Shown: positions 39,445 to 46,904 of the stretch, in pieces
Layout: each line of letters opens with the position of its first letter
Numbering within the stretch: position 1 is the stretch's first letter
Virus record (IMG/VR): IMGVR_UViG_3300036766_000548
Location: 1-64,000 of that record
Strand: one strand, 5' to 3'
From: a virus
DNA length: 64,000 nt
Made by a program: the position numbers and the translations under genes
Notes under the pieces: generated by a model
What the model was told of the DNA's origin: nothing
What the model saw: only the letters and a program-made list of their open reading frames with translations
Database searches by the model: none

Positions 39445-42159
39445 TTATTTGAAACTAAAATCAAAATACTGCTTCAATTTATTATTCTGTTCGCTAGTAA
39501 CTTCGCAATCTTTATGCGCTCCAATAATAGTTAATATATCATCTGCCTTTGTTTTCTTTCCTAGGTTATTATCAATATCGAAAAATCCATTATTTACTTT
39601 TGTTTTTCTATTGGCTATCTCTTTCGCCGTGCTTTCGCCAAATCCTTTAATCTCAATAAATGGGCAATAGATAATATCATTTTTTACTATCCATTTCTTG
39701 CTATCAGATTTTCCAATTTTAGGTGGCCTAATATCATAATCTTTTCTAAGCGCATTTTCAATAATATCAGGTTTATTCCCATCAGAACCACAAGTCAATG
39801 AAGCACAAATAAACTCTAATGGGTAATATACTTTTATAAACATCTGCCAAAAAGCCAATACAGAATAACCTACACTGTGGGATCTGTTAAATCCGTATGC
39901 GCCGAATGTAGCCAATTCATCCCATAATTTTTCTGCCTCCTCCCTATTTAATGTTTTATTCTTTATACAACCTTTAGCAAATGTATTTTTGAATTTTGCA
40001 AACTCTTCGCCGCCCTTGCTTTTAGCGACTATTTTCCTAACTTTATCTGCTATTGTCCAATCTAATCCGGCTACTTCATTTACTATCTGCATTAATTGCT
40101 CTTGATATACTACGATCCCATAAGTGTCTTTTGTAATTTTTTCTATAATGGTGTTTTGCTTAGGTATTTTCTTACCGTTCTTTTTTCTATCAATGAATAT
40201 ATCAACCATTCCCGCCTGCAATGGGCCTGGCCTAAATAAAGCATTGATATGTGATAAAGTTATGAAATCATTTACTTTCATTTCATTGCAAAGCTTTTTT
40301 ATTCCATAAGTACCAAATTGAAAAATACCAGTAGTATTGCCATTAGAAAACTCTTTTAATATTTTAGGATCATCCAATTCAATATCTTCATAAACAATAT
40401 CTTTATCAGTATTTATCTTAATCAATTCCTTGGCTTCATTCAATATAGTTAATGCGTTTATCCCTAAAATATCCAGCTTCATCAAGCCTTCAAACTCTAT
40501 ATCATATTTATCCCAATTGACCGTCAATTCTTTTTTTGACTTACCGCCATATTGTAAGGATACTTTATTTCCGTTTGTCAAATCATCTTTTGAAATCACT
40601 ACTGCCGCCGCATGGCTTCCTTTGCCCCTAACTTGATTTTCCAGTTTAGTGCAAACACTAAATACTTCCGGGTATTCTTTCTTAAAGCGTTTTCCTTCAT
40701 TAAAATTATTCAACAACTTTATTACAGAATCTTCGCTTTCCTCATCTCCTTCGACTTCATCTATGGATTTATTCAATTCATTTATTCTGTCAAATGGAAT
40801 ATCAAATACCCGCGAAACATCCTTTAATGCGCTCTTGCCTTTCATTGTCAAGAAAGTGGAAACGCAAGCTACATGATTTTCGCCGTAAGTATCCTTGAAA
40901 TGATTTATAACCAATTGCCTTTTATCGTCCTGGAAATCATTATCAATATCGGGTAAGTCTATTCTATCTGGAGATATAAACCTAGAGAAAAGCAAATTAA
41001 ATTCAATAGGATCAATTTTAGTAATTCCTAATAAATAACAAACTAATGAACCGCCCGCACTTCCTCGGCCTGGACCTGTCATTATATTGTTATTTTTGCA
41101 CCATTGTATAACTTCATCGACAATAAGAAAATATTCGCAAAATCCTTGTTTCATTATCAATTCCATTTCATCTGTCAATCGTTGTCTATAAAGAGATATA
41201 TTAAATTTTCTTTTGGGATTATTTATTATTTTATTCTTGAACTCTACTGAACATTTATGTTTTAATAGTTCCTCGGCAGTACACCCGCATTCTTTCAATT
41301 CTGGCGTTTTTGGCAATTCTACTTTACGTTCTGTTATCCTGAAATCCTTGCATTTATTGAATACTTCAATGGTATTATTCAAATATTCTTCTATTTGTTT
41401 ATCATCAAATTGTTTTTGCTTTTTGAATGTCAGAAACATCTCATCATAATTTTTCGCATATAATCCTTCAACTTCAAATCGCCACCTATCAGGATCATTC
41501 CATTTCTTTTTTGTCTGTATTGCCAATAATACTTCTTGCGCCTTCGCATCATCCTTATGTATATAATGGCAATCATTAGTGGCTATTACTTTTATTCCTA
41601 GTGCTTCTGAATATTTAATAGCCAATTCATTAACTTCTAATTGTTCTTTCATGTTATGTGGCATCACTTCTGTATATAGATCATCGCCTATTTGTTTATA
41701 TAAATCCTTTAATAGCTTGATGCCCCATTTTTCTTTTATGAATGAAGCGGTACAAGCGGTAGAAATAATCAGCCCTTCGCAATGTTTTAACAATATTTCT
41801 GGAGATATACGCGGCCTGTAATATTGCCCTTCAAGATTGGCAATGGTAAGCATCTGTAAAATATTTGTCCAACCAATATCATTTTTAACTAATGCCAATA
41901 AATGAGAACGCTTCTCACCTTTTGTATGATCCTTGATATCATTGACAATATAAAACTCGCATCCATGGATAGGAATAAGGCCATTTGAAATAAACTCATT
42001 CTGGAATTTTATATTGCCATCTACATTTGAATGATTGGTCAATGCCATTCCTAATTGATTGTTTTCTAATATCTTTGAAGCGTAATTCTTGGCGGCTCCA
42101 AATCCATCGAGCAGGGAATATTCATTGTGTACATGAAGATGGATAAAATCTTTAGGCAT
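39445..42159 (-). CDS. dnaE: DNA polymerase III alpha subunit (C-family, DnaE-like)
   Basis: 904 residues. An N-terminal PHP domain (FIHLHVHNEYSLLDGFGAAKNY) precedes the polymerase core. TGPGRGSAGGSLVCYLLGITKIDP and LPDIDNDFQDDKR near residue 400 carry the catalytic aspartates. AYGFNRSHSVGYSVLAFWQM is also diagnostic. It is ~250 residues shorter than bacterial DnaE and ends just after the helix-hairpin-helix region, so the OB and tau-binding C-terminal part is missing or replaced. It is the phage replicative polymerase, clamp-dependent. Confidence 0.93.
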   Translation of the reverse strand: MPKDFIHLHVHNEYSLLDGFGAAKNYASKILENNQLGMALTNHSNVDGNIKFQNEFISNGLIPIHGCEFYIVNDIKDHTKGEKRSHLLALVKNDIGWTNILQMLTIANLEGQYYRPRISPEILLKHCEGLIISTACTASFIKEKWGIKLLKDLYKQIGDDLYTEVMPHNMKEQLEVNELAIKYSEALGIKVIATNDCHYIHKDDAKAQEVLLAIQTKKKWNDPDRWRFEVEGLYAKNYDEMFLTFKKQKQFDDKQIEEYLNNTIEVFNKCKDFRITERKVELPKTPELKECGCTAEELLKHKCSVEFKNKIINNPKRKFNISLYRQRLTDEMELIMKQGFCEYFLIVDEVIQWCKNNNIMTGPGRGSAGGSLVCYLLGITKIDPIEFNLLFSRFISPDRIDLPDIDNDFQDDKRQLVINHFKDTYGENHVACVSTFLTMKGKSALKDVSRVFDIPFDRINELNKSIDEVEGDEESEDSVIKLLNNFNEGKRFKKEYPEVFSVCTKLENQVRGKGSHAAAVVISKDDLTNGNKVSLQYGGKSKKELTVNWDKYDIEFEGLMKLDILGINALTILNEAKELIKINTDKDIVYEDIELDDPKILKEFSNGNTTGIFQFGTYGIKKLCNEMKVNDFITLSHINALFRPGPLQAGMVDIFIDRKKNGKKIPKQNTIIEKITKDTYGIVVYQEQLMQIVNEVAGLDWTIADKVRKIVAKSKGGEEFAKFKNTFAKGCIKNKTLNREEAEKLWDELATFGAYGFNRSHSVGYSVLAFWQMFIKVYYPLEFICASLTCGSDGNKPDIIENALRKDYDIRPPKIGKSDSKKWIVKNDIIYCPFIEIKGFGESTAKEIANRKTKVNNGFFDIDNNLGKKTKADDILTIIGAHKDCEVTSEQNNKLKQYFDFSFK

Positions 42160-42652
42160 TATTTAATATCTTAATTGCTTTTTCTGCATTTTCTTTTGAT
42201 AAACCAGTTTTATTATCTACTAATACTAAATTTTCAATTAAATCTTCCATATCAGAATCATCGTCAATAATTACAAATGATTCTATTGGTTCTTTATAAA
42301 TACACCATTGAGAATCTTTATATTTAACTATTTTAGATGCATGTTCAATTAACCAACATTTAATTTCTGCTCCTCTATATGAATCTAATCGAGGAGTAAT
42401 ATCAATAACTTCTCCAATAATTCCTAATGCGTGAAAATATCTATCAAATAAAGAAGCGTGATTCCCATGACGCCAAGTAGAACTAATAACTATTTTTGCA
42501 TCGGTTTTTTCTATAATTAAATTTAACCATCCAATATTTTCTATTGAAGGTTCATCCGACCATTTTCTATCATCAGATTCTGTCATTGATTTAACTGAAT
42601 TTAATACTCCATCTATATCTAAAAATATAATCTTAATTTTATTCTCCTCCAT
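42152..42652 (-). CDS. HAD-like hydrolase, 166 aa
   Basis: IIFLDIDGVLNSV is the HAD motif I, with motif II in IVISSTWR and an acidic IIDDDSDMEDL like motif III. A group of such HAD domains in phages is linked to nucleotide or RNA end processing, as far as I know. ATG at 42652 lies inside the end of the clamp gene (14 bp overlap). No RBS is evident. Confidence 0.65.
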   Translation of the reverse strand: MEENKIKIIFLDIDGVLNSVKSMTESDDRKWSDEPSIENIGWLNLIIEKTDAKIVISSTWRHGNHASLFDRYFHALGIIGEVIDITPRLDSYRGAEIKCWLIEHASKIVKYKDSQWCIYKEPIESFVIIDDDSDMEDLIENLVLVDNKTGLSKENAEKAIKILNNA

Positions 42653-43718
42653 CGAACGTCGAGATAAGCTGAATACCAAATTCTGATACGAACACCACCC
42701 TGGTCTTAACTTTCTCTTGCACTACGGTATTTTTTAGATAGAAACTCTTACTATATTTTATCCCGTTCTGTATCATCGAATAATCCACATAAATGCTTAT
42801 AGGCGAAATATCATTCTTGAACGGCTTTTCCCATGGAACATTTTCAGTATACTTGCCGCTTGGCCTTTGACTGAATACTTCTATATTGTCCTTAGTAAAA
42901 GTCAATTTAACCGTATCGAAACTTTCTATATTCTGGCTAAGTGCCGCTGCTCTGTTCACTGCATCAATCAACTTATTAGGAAGCTCATTTGAAATATCGC
43001 CTTTTTCCTTTTTATGACTTTCAATAAAATCAATTACTTTACTATATGGATAATTTTCCTGAGCCAATCGCTTGCAACTGAAGATAGTTTTGTCCTCTGT
43101 CTGGAAATGCACCCAAGAATCCGACACATAATATTTTACGACATTATTCAATTTCAATAGTTCGGTAACAGCATCATTATTGATCCAGAATGAAGTTACA
43201 ATCTCATCATCCAAAGTATAATGATTAACCTTCAAATTATCGGTTGAAATGATATTCTTATCTGAACAATAAACACCGGACAATTGTGATTGTGACTTGA
43301 AATTGCATATTGCCAAGCCCTCGAAAAACCGTTCAAGAATATTTACCCATTTGAACTTACCATTGGTTATTCCCTGGATACGCTCAATGAGATTGTTTTC
43401 AAGCAATGTCAATTCAGCTCGGGCATTCTCAGATTTTACAATCCACATATCAGACTTTGGAACGATGGAAATGGTATCACCTTCATAGCGGGAAATAAGA
43501 TCGTAAAAATCCTTGGCCTTGATGGCGGCAGAAATGTTCTCGCCTGCCTTATTGGTGATAGGAAAATGCACTGATACCGAGATGGTGTCATTATAGGTAT
43601 GGATAAACCCATCATGGAAAATGAAGGTATCGGCACCTTGCAGGATGGTGTTGCCGGATTCAACACCGGGCATGGCTTGTTTCATCGCGGTCAGGAATTC
43701 TGATCTTTGTAAAATCAT
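42639..43718 (-). CDS. Sliding-clamp-like protein 1, 359 aa
   Basis: Divergent. MILQRSEFLTAMKQAMPGVESGNTILQGAD with FIHTYNDTISVSVHFP resembles the first domain of a beta clamp, and three-fold repetition of such beta-alpha modules is suggested. A second, more standard clamp-like gene lies at 44699. It overlaps the Dcm gene's downstream end closely. Function as DNA clamp or clamp-associated factor is likely but not proven. Confidence 0.6.
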   Translation of the reverse strand: MILQRSEFLTAMKQAMPGVESGNTILQGADTFIFHDGFIHTYNDTISVSVHFPITNKAGENISAAIKAKDFYDLISRYEGDTISIVPKSDMWIVKSENARAELTLLENNLIERIQGITNGKFKWVNILERFFEGLAICNFKSQSQLSGVYCSDKNIISTDNLKVNHYTLDDEIVTSFWINNDAVTELLKLNNVVKYYVSDSWVHFQTEDKTIFSCKRLAQENYPYSKVIDFIESHKKEKGDISNELPNKLIDAVNRAAALSQNIESFDTVKLTFTKDNIEVFSQRPSGKYTENVPWEKPFKNDISPISIYVDYSMIQNGIKYSKSFYLKNTVVQEKVKTRVVFVSEFGIQLISTFDGGE

Positions 43719-44593
43719 TTATTTATCTCCTTTGTTATCTTCTTCAAATCTATACCATCCTTGACTAAGTATAATAAATGCGACCGCTGCCACTGAAGGA
43801 ACTTGTCCATTCCCAATGGCTGCAATGCGGTCCACTCTATTGGCCAACCCATCAGCCACTCTACCCAATTCGGATTCAGTTGACCACCAGTTTCTATTGC
43901 TTCCTTTGCCGTTATTCTTGTTAGGCTGTCTTTCCTGTTTATATTTATTTGTTTCAATAAACTTTCTTTGCTGTATGTAGATGTTATTGAATCCATTTTC
44001 ATTGGAGTCGGATACATTCTTACATATCGATCCAATGTCATTTGACTTTTTCCGTTGCGGACTAGATTCAATGTATGTTCCGATTTTCCTGCTTCGCTTT
44101 TCATTGGTGTTGGCAAGAATCCAGATTCGTTCCCGTTTATGTTTCGCCCCAACATCGCAAGCTCCCAGCACTCCCCATCTAGCATCATACCCCATCGTGG
44201 CCAAGTCTCCAAGAACGATTCCAAGTCCTCGAATAGTGAGAAGTGGTGAGTTTTCAATAAGACACCATTCTGGTTTAATTTCGCAAACGATCCTGGCCAT
44301 TTCTTTCCAAAGTCCAGAACGCTTGCCTTCCAGTCCAGCTCCCTTTCCTGCTGCGGAAATGTCTTGACAAGGGAATCCGCCGGTAATAATATCCACTCTT
44401 CCTTTCCACGGTTTACCGTCAAATGTTGTAATATCATCCCATATAGGGAATCTTGGTAGTATTCCGTCCCTTTGTCTTTGTAATAGGATTTCAATACAAT
44501 ATTTTTCGATTTCGACGGCGCAAACCGTTTTCCATCCCAGCAAAGTCCCTCCGAGGATTCCGCCGCCCGCTCCACTAAATAATGAAAGCTCAC
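43715..44593 (-). CDS. Overlapping frame inside dcm, possible second protein (292 aa)
   Basis: From a GTG 4 bp inside dcm, the +1-shifted frame stays open for 292 codons and ends 4 bp past the dcm stop. It reads SLFEDLESFLETWPRWGMMLDGECWELAML, GFLPTPMKS and WVEWLMGWPIEWTALQPLGMDKF. These motifs recall a phage protein family of unknown function that I have seen in annotated genomes. The same bases encode the LGRVADGLANRVDR... AIGNGQVP end of Dcm. Real expression is unproven. Confidence 0.5.
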   Translation of the reverse strand: MSFHYLVERAAESSEGLCWDGKRFAPSKSKNIVLKSYYKDKGTEYYQDSLYGMILQHLTVNRGKEEWILLPADSLVKTFPQQERELDWKASVLDFGKKWPGSFAKLNQNGVLLKTHHFSLFEDLESFLETWPRWGMMLDGECWELAMLGRNINGNESGFLPTPMKSEAGKSEHTLNLVRNGKSQMTLDRYVRMYPTPMKMDSITSTYSKESLLKQININRKDSLTRITAKEAIETGGQLNPNWVEWLMGWPIEWTALQPLGMDKFLQWQRSHLLYLVKDGIDLKKITKEINK

Positions 44594-44597
44594 GCAT
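43719..44597 (-). CDS. dcm: DNA (cytosine-5)-methyltransferase
   Basis: 292 residues. SLFSGAGGGILGG is motif I, GGFPCQDIS holds the catalytic Cys77, ENSPLL is motif VI, RERIW is motif VIII and AIGNGQVP is motif X. ATG 44597 has GGAG upstream. The enzyme methylates cytosine in a short target, probably protecting phage DNA from host restriction. No cognate nuclease is visible. The whole gene is also open in a second frame (43715-44593). Confidence 0.9.
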   Translation of the reverse strand: MRELSLFSGAGGGILGGTLLGWKTVCAVEIEKYCIEILLQRQRDGILPRFPIWDDITTFDGKPWKGRVDIITGGFPCQDISAAGKGAGLEGKRSGLWKEMARIVCEIKPEWCLIENSPLLTIRGLGIVLGDLATMGYDARWGVLGACDVGAKHKRERIWILANTNEKRSRKIGTYIESSPQRKKSNDIGSICKNVSDSNENGFNNIYIQQRKFIETNKYKQERQPNKNNGKGSNRNWWSTESELGRVADGLANRVDRIAAIGNGQVPSVAAVAFIILSQGWYRFEEDNKGDK

Positions 44598-44658
44598 TCT
44601 CCTTTTCTCCAAATAATGATTGCCCGATCAATGTCATCCCCTTTTTCTTATTAGCCAT
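44590..44658 (-). CDS. Possible small peptide, 22 aa
   Basis: MANKKKGMTLIGQSLFGEKENA. The frame also reads upstream to an ACG triplet that has GGAG at the right distance, so the true start is unsure. It overlaps the dcm start by 8 bp and may act as a leader peptide coupling dcm translation. Confidence 0.35.
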   Translation of the reverse strand: MANKKKGMTLIGQSLFGEKENA

Positions 44659-46105: not shown

Positions 46106-46134
46106 ATTATATATCATTACTCAACATTTTTCAA
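46106..46134 (-). promoter_or_regulatory. Sigma-70 promoter
   Basis: TTGAAA (46129-46134), 17-bp spacer, TATAAT (46106-46111) on the minus strand. The best standard promoter seen in the window. It drives the methyltransferase fragment and the genes downstream of it. Confidence 0.65.
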
Positions 46135-46904
46135 AACAAATCGTATTTACTTTTTCTTCCTTTTAATTGTTTTTCTGGGTTTCTTATTCTATCTACGGAT
46201 AAATTGAAATATTTTTCATCCTTTTCTATTCCTATAAAATTTCTGTTTATATATTTACAAGCTATTCCTGTTGATCCTGAACCCATGCAATTGTCCAATA
46301 CTGTTTCATTTTCTAAAGTATACGTTTTGATTAAATATTGTAGTAATAATACTGGCTTTTGAGTTGGATGCAATCTATTTTTATCTCTTTTGAATTTTAT
46401 AATTGATACTGGAAATCTATCCCCATTATTTTTTGTAATTATGTTTGTTTGATCTCCATAATTTTTACTACCATTGCCACTTTTACAAGTATATGGAATC
46501 CCTTTTCTCATTTGTGGATTATATATTGATTGTTTTTTATAAAATACTAAAATATTTTCGTGGTTTTTTAATGGCATTATTTTTGAATTCAAATGGCCAC
46601 TTCCTATTTCCTTATTCCAAATCCATTCATATTTTAACATTTTTAGATTAGAATAACTTAAAACTTTATCAAATGGGGTTTGAGAAAATAACACTATAGC
46701 TGAGTTATCTTTACAAACTCTATTATATTGTTTCCAAAGTAAAGATAAATCTATAACAGAATCCCATGAATTATTTGTAGTTCCATATGGCAAATCACAC
46801 AAAATCATATTAATACTTTTATCAGGAATGATTTTCATCACTTCCAGACAATCGCCTAGATATAAAGTGGAATTATCAATTATAGTTTTATTGTATTTAT
46901 TCAT
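46131..46904 (-). CDS. DNA N4/N6 methyltransferase (beta class)
   Basis: 257 residues. ILCDLPYGTTNN is the catalytic motif IV (DLPY variant of DPPY), and HPTQKPVLLLQYLIKTYT then VLDNCMGSGSTGIACK is the target-recognition end and SAM-binding motif I. Order (catalytic then SAM motif) defines the beta class (MT-A70-unlike, DpnA/M.MunI-like). Methylates adenine or N4-cytosine in phage DNA. Confidence 0.85.
   Translation of the reverse strand: MNKYNKTIIDNSTLYLGDCLEVMKIIPDKSINMILCDLPYGTTNNSWDSVIDLSLLWKQYNRVCKDNSAIVLFSQTPFDKVLSYSNLKMLKYEWIWNKEIGSGHLNSKIMPLKNHENILVFYKKQSIYNPQMRKGIPYTCKSGNGSKNYGDQTNIITKNNGDRFPVSIIKFKRDKNRLHPTQKPVLLLQYLIKTYTLENETVLDNCMGSGSTGIACKYINRNFIGIEKDEKYFNLSVDRIRNPEKQLKGRKSKYDLF

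Follow-up and report, generated by a model that had tools for sequence, protein, structure and literature searches.

A phage cytosine methyltransferase gene maintained in two overlapping frames that very likely encode the two chains of one enzyme

Two-chain C5-cytosine methyltransferases have been described in bacteria in two forms. M.EcoHK31I has a large chain with motifs I to VIII and X and a small chain with motif IX only, and in M.AquI the break follows motif VIII and lies in the variable region (PMC3404938). The small-chain gene of M.EcoHK31I reportedly lies within the large-chain gene but is read in a different frame (Lee, Kam and Shaw 1995). The small chain has about 176 aa. Here, we describe a locus in a 64-kb window, the whole stretch of DNA that was analyzed and the first part of a 78,011-base virus record, that very likely (probability roughly 0.87) specifies an M.EcoHK31I-like two-chain C5-cytosine DNA methyltransferase from a single DNA stretch. 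The reading frames and their conservation are observed; translation, assembly, and activity are inferred.

The features of the locus are listed in Table 1. The alpha frame runs from an ATG at 44597 to a stop at 43719, with an additional in-frame TTG upstream at 44612. The beta frame, +1 relative to alpha, runs from a GTG at 44593 to a stop at 43715 and is open for 292 codons, so that the two frames share 875 of 879 nt. An earlier note, made from sequence alone, had claimed a dcm gene open in two frames, with the motifs SLFEDLESFLETWPRWG, LPTP, and EWLMGWPIEWT in the second. Both claims held: the two ORFs each encode 292 aa, and all of these motifs are present in the +1 translation. Even the bases of alpha motif X, GNGQVP, double as code for beta residues around LGMDKF.

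Table 1. Features of the double-coded methyltransferase locus (positions in the window)
Feature	Position	Strand	Basis
Alpha: C5-cytosine methyltransferase catalytic chain, 292 aa	43719..44597	-	PF00145, phrog_363, and M.HhaI matches
Beta: +1-frame protein, 292 aa	43715..44593	-	phrog_1008, phrog_26627; no internal stops in homologues; alignment
Tandem start codons ATGCGTG (alpha ATG, beta GTG 4 nt downstream)	44591..44597	-	NTG conserved in homologues
Two Shine-Dalgarno-like GGAG motifs	44599..44610	-	Sequence; spacing scan over homologues
Alpha motif IV Pro-Cys-Gln, residues 76-78, catalytic Cys77	44364..44372	-	Translation
Beta conserved block, SLFEDLESFLETWPRWGMMLDGECWEL region, residues 119-145	44159..44239	-	Invariant residues; excess conservation over shuffles
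Beta first LPTP unit, variable target-recognition-like region	44105..44116	-	T162 and P163 >=90% conserved
Beta second unit, YPTP	44003..44014	-	T196 and P197 >=90% conserved
Beta motif-IX-like block LNPNWVEWLMGWPIEWT, residues 239-255	43829..43879	-	Invariant residues, hhalign, fourfold-site agreement
Alpha motif X GNGQVP, residues 262-267	43797..43814	-	Translation; conserved in homologues
Next gene, 359 aa, no Pfam match	42639..43718	-	ATG overlaps beta stop as ATGA

The surroundings of the locus were also inspected. Two genes downstream of the methylase, positions 42152-42679 encode a HAD_SAK_2 domain protein (PF18143, 5e-25); this domain takes its name from RNA repair proteins. At 46131-46904, an ORF with DLPYGTTNNSWD resembles an amino-methyltransferase (adenine or N4-cytosine), an inference from its sequence only. 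No restriction enzyme was recognized adjoining the window methylase gene. The sign of the GC skew flips at about 30 to 31 kb of the window, as at a divergent transcription boundary or a replication origin.

Alpha meets the criteria of a C5-cytosine methyltransferase, with motif I, PCQ (IV), EN (VI), a QxRxR-like motif (VIII), and GN(x)VP (X), and it matches phrog_363 at 5e-72. Its match to PF00145 (2e-39) nevertheless pairs residues 1-225 with profile positions 1-227 of 324 only, and its match to M.HhaI ends at residue 166, after motif VIII. Motif IX is absent from the alpha chain: WWSTESELGRVADGLAN occupies the expected place, where the PF00145 match has already stopped. Alpha is therefore the catalytic chain of a PF00145 family enzyme rather than a complete single-chain member. 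The block resembling the missing motif IX is present in beta.

The length of the second frame is far outside the background of the window. Among its 60 non-overlapping ORFs, the next longest +1 shadow run spans 96 codons, and at the background +1 stop rate of 0.088 per codon, 292 open codons would arise with a P of ~2e-12. Synonymous-codon shuffles that kept the same protein and codon usage placed a mean of 7.4 stops in the +1 frame of the window gene, where none is seen. Across 150 loci, the +1 frame contained 245 stops versus 952 expected from such shuffles, and the +2 frame contained 2541 versus 2274 expected. Nearly every +1 stop falls at the first codon or among the last few codons, and in three distant loci the first 66 codons hold stops as well. 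For 98 homologues, non-redundant at 80% alpha identity, +1 codons 16-255 contained 0 stops versus ~406 expected. Conventional Dcm controls, C5 methylases from Priestia, Streptomyces, Enterococcus, Bifidobacterium, and E. coli, had 98 stops versus 104 expected, and the absence of depletion there indicates that the effect is not general to Dcm genes.

Conservation of bases that alpha does not need points the same way. Agreement at alpha fourfold-degenerate sites was above expectation overall and at every divergence level. In the most distant pairs (<45% alpha identity), the excess was concentrated in the C-terminal half and reached 0.57 versus 0.26 expected in alpha codons 241-270, the motif-IX region, while codons 1-60 were near random; the first ~90 beta codons are only weakly conserved between distant clades (0.25-0.30 versus 0.26). 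A neighboring gene served for comparison in the pair formed by the window and its closest relative (L001:2431-3198, 70% alpha identity in the tblastn match). For this pair, alpha has 80% amino acid identity and 85% identical fourfold sites, whereas the adjacent downstream single-frame gene has 94% amino acid identity and only 54% identical fourfold sites. In a comparison of alpha third positions, 5 of 1135 differences create a beta stop, although stop-making changes account for ~6% of the weighted opportunities. A synonymous/nonsynonymous ratio for beta is undefined at these positions, because the third position of an alpha codon is the second of a beta codon, so that no change there leaves beta unaltered.

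A first rival explanation holds that the +1 ORF is passive, kept open by alpha residues and codon usage, with its apparent homology induced. In its favor, shuffled genes retain 25% +1-frame identity, so part of the second-frame tblastn similarity is indeed induced by alpha homology; we therefore relied on tests that remove this effect. Nor were shuffle Z-scores taken as probabilities, since shuffled genes no longer reflect shared ancestry; the evidence relied on instead consists of stop counts, fourfold sites in distant pairs, the neighbor-gene comparison, and the start-codon test described below. Against the passive reading, synonymous shuffling brings back about 400 stops where 0 exist, third bases are conserved where alpha has no need of them, the other frame keeps a conserved start codon, beta LPTP motifs fall where alpha has no conservation, and conventional Dcm genes lack the effect. 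This explanation is all but excluded, and both frames are under long-term selection. The remaining claims of the earlier note fared accordingly. That so long a shadow frame is unexpected by chance held against the window background, codon shuffles, and homologues, and the proposal that the frame is genuinely coding and carries motifs familiar from phage proteins near Dcm was supported. Neither of the two results named there as refuting it was obtained: second-frame stops did not appear in codons 16-255 of the 98 homologues, and an absence of selection beyond Dcm is contradicted by the fourfold-site agreement. The identity of the second protein had been left unstated; the evidence now favors reading it as the methylase's own motif-IX (target recognition) subunit.

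The two frames also have a conserved pair of start codons. The alpha start could be assigned in 61 homologues, and in 60 of these the beta-frame codon 4 nt after it is NTG (56 ATG and 4 GTG); the window reads ATGCGTG and a typical homologue ATGAATGAG. Alpha residue 2 is Asn, encoded by AAT in 55/55 cases although AAC is the commoner Asn codon in alpha genes (log10 P = -22.5 with the Asn codon usage of each gene taken into account). Of the two GGAG motifs in the window, one lies 9 nt before the alpha ATG and the other 5 nt before the beta GTG, and in 55/61 homologues a beta-frame TGA immediately precedes the beta start. Start-codon conservation, GGAG spacing, and this TGA together favor separate initiation of the two chains. 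The rival view that ribosomes reach the beta frame from alpha through a programmed frameshift, producing an alpha-beta fusion and no free beta, gains some support from single-chain phages, which are in a sense such fusions. However, beta owns a conserved start 4 nt after that of alpha, and the TGA that usually stands directly before it would not be needed by a fusion; on this start-site evidence, we consider frameshifting very unlikely.

Beta matches phrog_1008 (7e-23) and phrog_26627 (1.4e-14). Alone, it has no Pfam or NCBIfam family match and no significant PDB sequence match; a search of PDB with the beta alignment gave one weak hit to an uncharacterized protein (E 0.19), which was rejected as not significant. 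The AlphaFold model of beta alone was poor (pLDDT 57.6, pTM 0.26), and for these reasons the identification of motif IX depends on architecture and profile comparison. Conservation in beta is highest at LNPxWVEWLMGWPxxWT, at the SxETWPxWG block, and at the LPTP units, with P132, G135, and G140 invariant in 81 sequences and L247, M248, and T255 invariant in the alignment of beta homologues. The N-terminal 110 residues match nothing known, and the first ~90 codons have no counterpart in conventional C5 methylases.

Relatives with other architectures show where the beta segment belongs. We classified 291 loci by counting motifs per frame with HMMs: 237 were nested (motif IX in the +1 frame, motif X in alpha), 26 were single-chain, and 20-odd were split. 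Geralt-type phages have a single chain with motifs I to VIII, LPTP units, FPEWMMGWPAGWV, and, after a further 26 residues, GNGVCPQQA, which is how a conventional C5 methylase is laid out. The AlphaFold model of this chain matches M.HhaI 12-327 (Z ~22, 232-241 residues aligned) and has a strand followed by a helix at the motif-IX-like block. In EricB, Catdawg, and L050, which are split, alpha ends after motif VIII and the +1 frame holds an EWMMGWP-like block together with a motif-X-like GNG segment. Profile comparison of beta with the segment of single-chain relatives (hhalign) gave 96% probability and an E of 1.9e-9, and motif IX of E. coli Dcm, RLTPRECARLMGF, lines up with beta QLNPNWVEWLMGW. 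From the architecture of relatives, the profile alignment, and the Dcm alignment, LNPxWVEWLMGWPxxWT is best read as motif IX. Alpha residues 165-235 are not conserved, the LPTP units are conserved in beta, and split relatives put the recognition region in the second chain. Most simply, beta is the missing part of the methylase, supplying motif IX and, by inference, probably target recognition as well.

Beta might instead be translated as a separate protein, such as an anti-restriction factor, a nuclease, or a regulator, and not as a methylase subunit. This view is favored by the lack of a detectable Pfam match to the methylase family and by an N-terminal 110 residues resembling nothing known. 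Against it, alpha consistently lacks motif IX, beta always accompanies alpha, and single-chain and split relatives hold the same segment between methylase motifs VIII and X. We regard a separate role as unlikely.

The association of beta with alpha was seen in every set of loci. All 70 loci found with alpha alone as the search carry beta in the +1 frame, as do 20/20 inspected phage and plasmid records (HMM) and 80/80 retained bacterial and archaeal genome loci, the last of which were selected with the beta pattern. These genome loci include Acinetobacter, Pseudomonas, Halomonas, Spirochaetia, Akkermansia, and archaeal bins. No beta away from alpha was found in the loci searched. In a distant Nodularia phage (L214), the motif-IX region of beta is degenerate.

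Several variations on the arrangement were observed. Single-chain (Geralt-type) phages (L155:1462-1977 and L167-L189) retain a +1 ORF that includes the SETWPTSGMTRNG block and the first LPTP units, even though motifs IX and X are now in the alpha frame. The nested arrangement or its split form extends to archaea, with one case on a Methanomethylovorans hollandica plasmid and another in a euryarchaeal genome bin (L164, L289). The number of LPTP-like units differs widely among homologues; one beta (L051:3005-4528) has about nine versus two in the window, and its alpha shows matching ADAD-like repeats. On the Picosynechococcus PCC 7002 plasmid pAQ5 (L297:1845-2657), a Dcm lacking an evident motif IX is open throughout its +1 frame, which contains FSPEAMAMYMGFPWHLF, possibly a further, distant case of a double-coded methylase.

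Our preferred reading is thus a single enzyme made of two chains. Ribosomes would initiate either chain at tandem starts 4 nt apart, allowing co-expression from a single message. Frame 1 would supply alpha, with the AdoMet binding, catalytic PCQ, ENS, RxR, and GN(G)xxP motifs (I to VIII and X) but neither motif IX nor a conserved target-recognition segment; the +1 frame would supply beta, with a recognition-like segment (LPTP units) and motif IX (LNPxWVEWLMGWPxxWT); and the two are predicted to assemble into one complete enzyme. Translation of both chains, their assembly, methylation, and the assignment of target reading to one chain are all inferred. A role in shielding phage DNA from host restriction, or in regulation, is inferred only from the general behavior of phage orphan methylases. 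Several points weigh against the two-chain reading. Direct evidence is lacking for translation, for a complex, and for activity; beta alone has no family match and only a poor structural model; the N-terminal ~90 codons of beta are weakly conserved and have no conventional counterpart; and in the closest relative, L001, alpha is interrupted by a stop between motifs VIII and X, through truncation or a sequence error, although beta there is open over its full length.

The same double-coded gene occurs in hundreds of phages and prophages, and annotation usually keeps one frame. If the two-chain reading is true, many single "DNA cytosine methyltransferase" annotations in phages and prophages represent half an enzyme, with gene callers usually retaining one frame only, and alpha alone from a recoded gene should be inactive. 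A bolder reading is that a very common class of phage "Dcm" is a two-chain enzyme with ~290 codons co-encoded from tandem starts, in which beta is a modular specificity chain whose target is set by the number and make-up of its LPTP units; changing specificity would then mean rewriting two proteins at once. We hold this extension only tentatively and would not at present bet on it. The locus is also a case of extended same-strand dual coding, strongly supported by comparison, in the DNA phages and prophages of bacteria and archaea. Its origin can be traced through the single-chain and split relatives, and it is well suited to the question of how two subunits that are both needed can evolve when almost all of their bases are shared.

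Existing resources record parts of this arrangement. The profiles phrog_1008 and phrog_363 cover beta-like and alpha-like proteins, respectively; however, both are named "DNA methyltransferase," and PHROG does not present them as two frames of one gene. Likewise, in the gp55/gp56 pair of Paenibacillus phage Shelly, gp56 is annotated "g55 internal gene" at the equivalent place, but this is annotation only, with function taken no further than "DNA methyltransferase." A paper describing phage Dcm genes as dual-coding was not found in the open-licence literature searched. Like M.AquI (CYCGRG), the locus would make one enzyme of two chains, and EricB, Catdawg, and L050 have motifs IX and X in the second chain. 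The M.AquI-type criterion, both of these motifs in the second chain, is met by ~20 relatives but not by the window, where motif X (GNGQVP) stays in alpha; moreover, window-type genes overlap throughout. The likeness to M.EcoHK31I (YGGCCR) is closer. This heterodimeric C5 methyltransferase has a large chain with motifs I to VIII and X but not IX, as does the window alpha, and a small chain with motif IX, as does the window beta by architecture and profile, without a direct Pfam match. The window-type family also meets the M.EcoHK31I-type criterion of a second chain in an overlapping frame of the large-chain gene. It differs in that the window beta spans essentially the whole alpha gene, starting 4 nt after the alpha start, and in that the recognition domain of M.EcoHK31I is predicted in the large chain, whereas the conserved variable segment (LPTP) of the window type is in beta. 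The two-subunit principle was already known; what appears to be new is that the two frames overlap almost completely, that their starts are tandem, that the gene is spread so broadly over phages, prophages, and plasmids, and that it has three related architectures.
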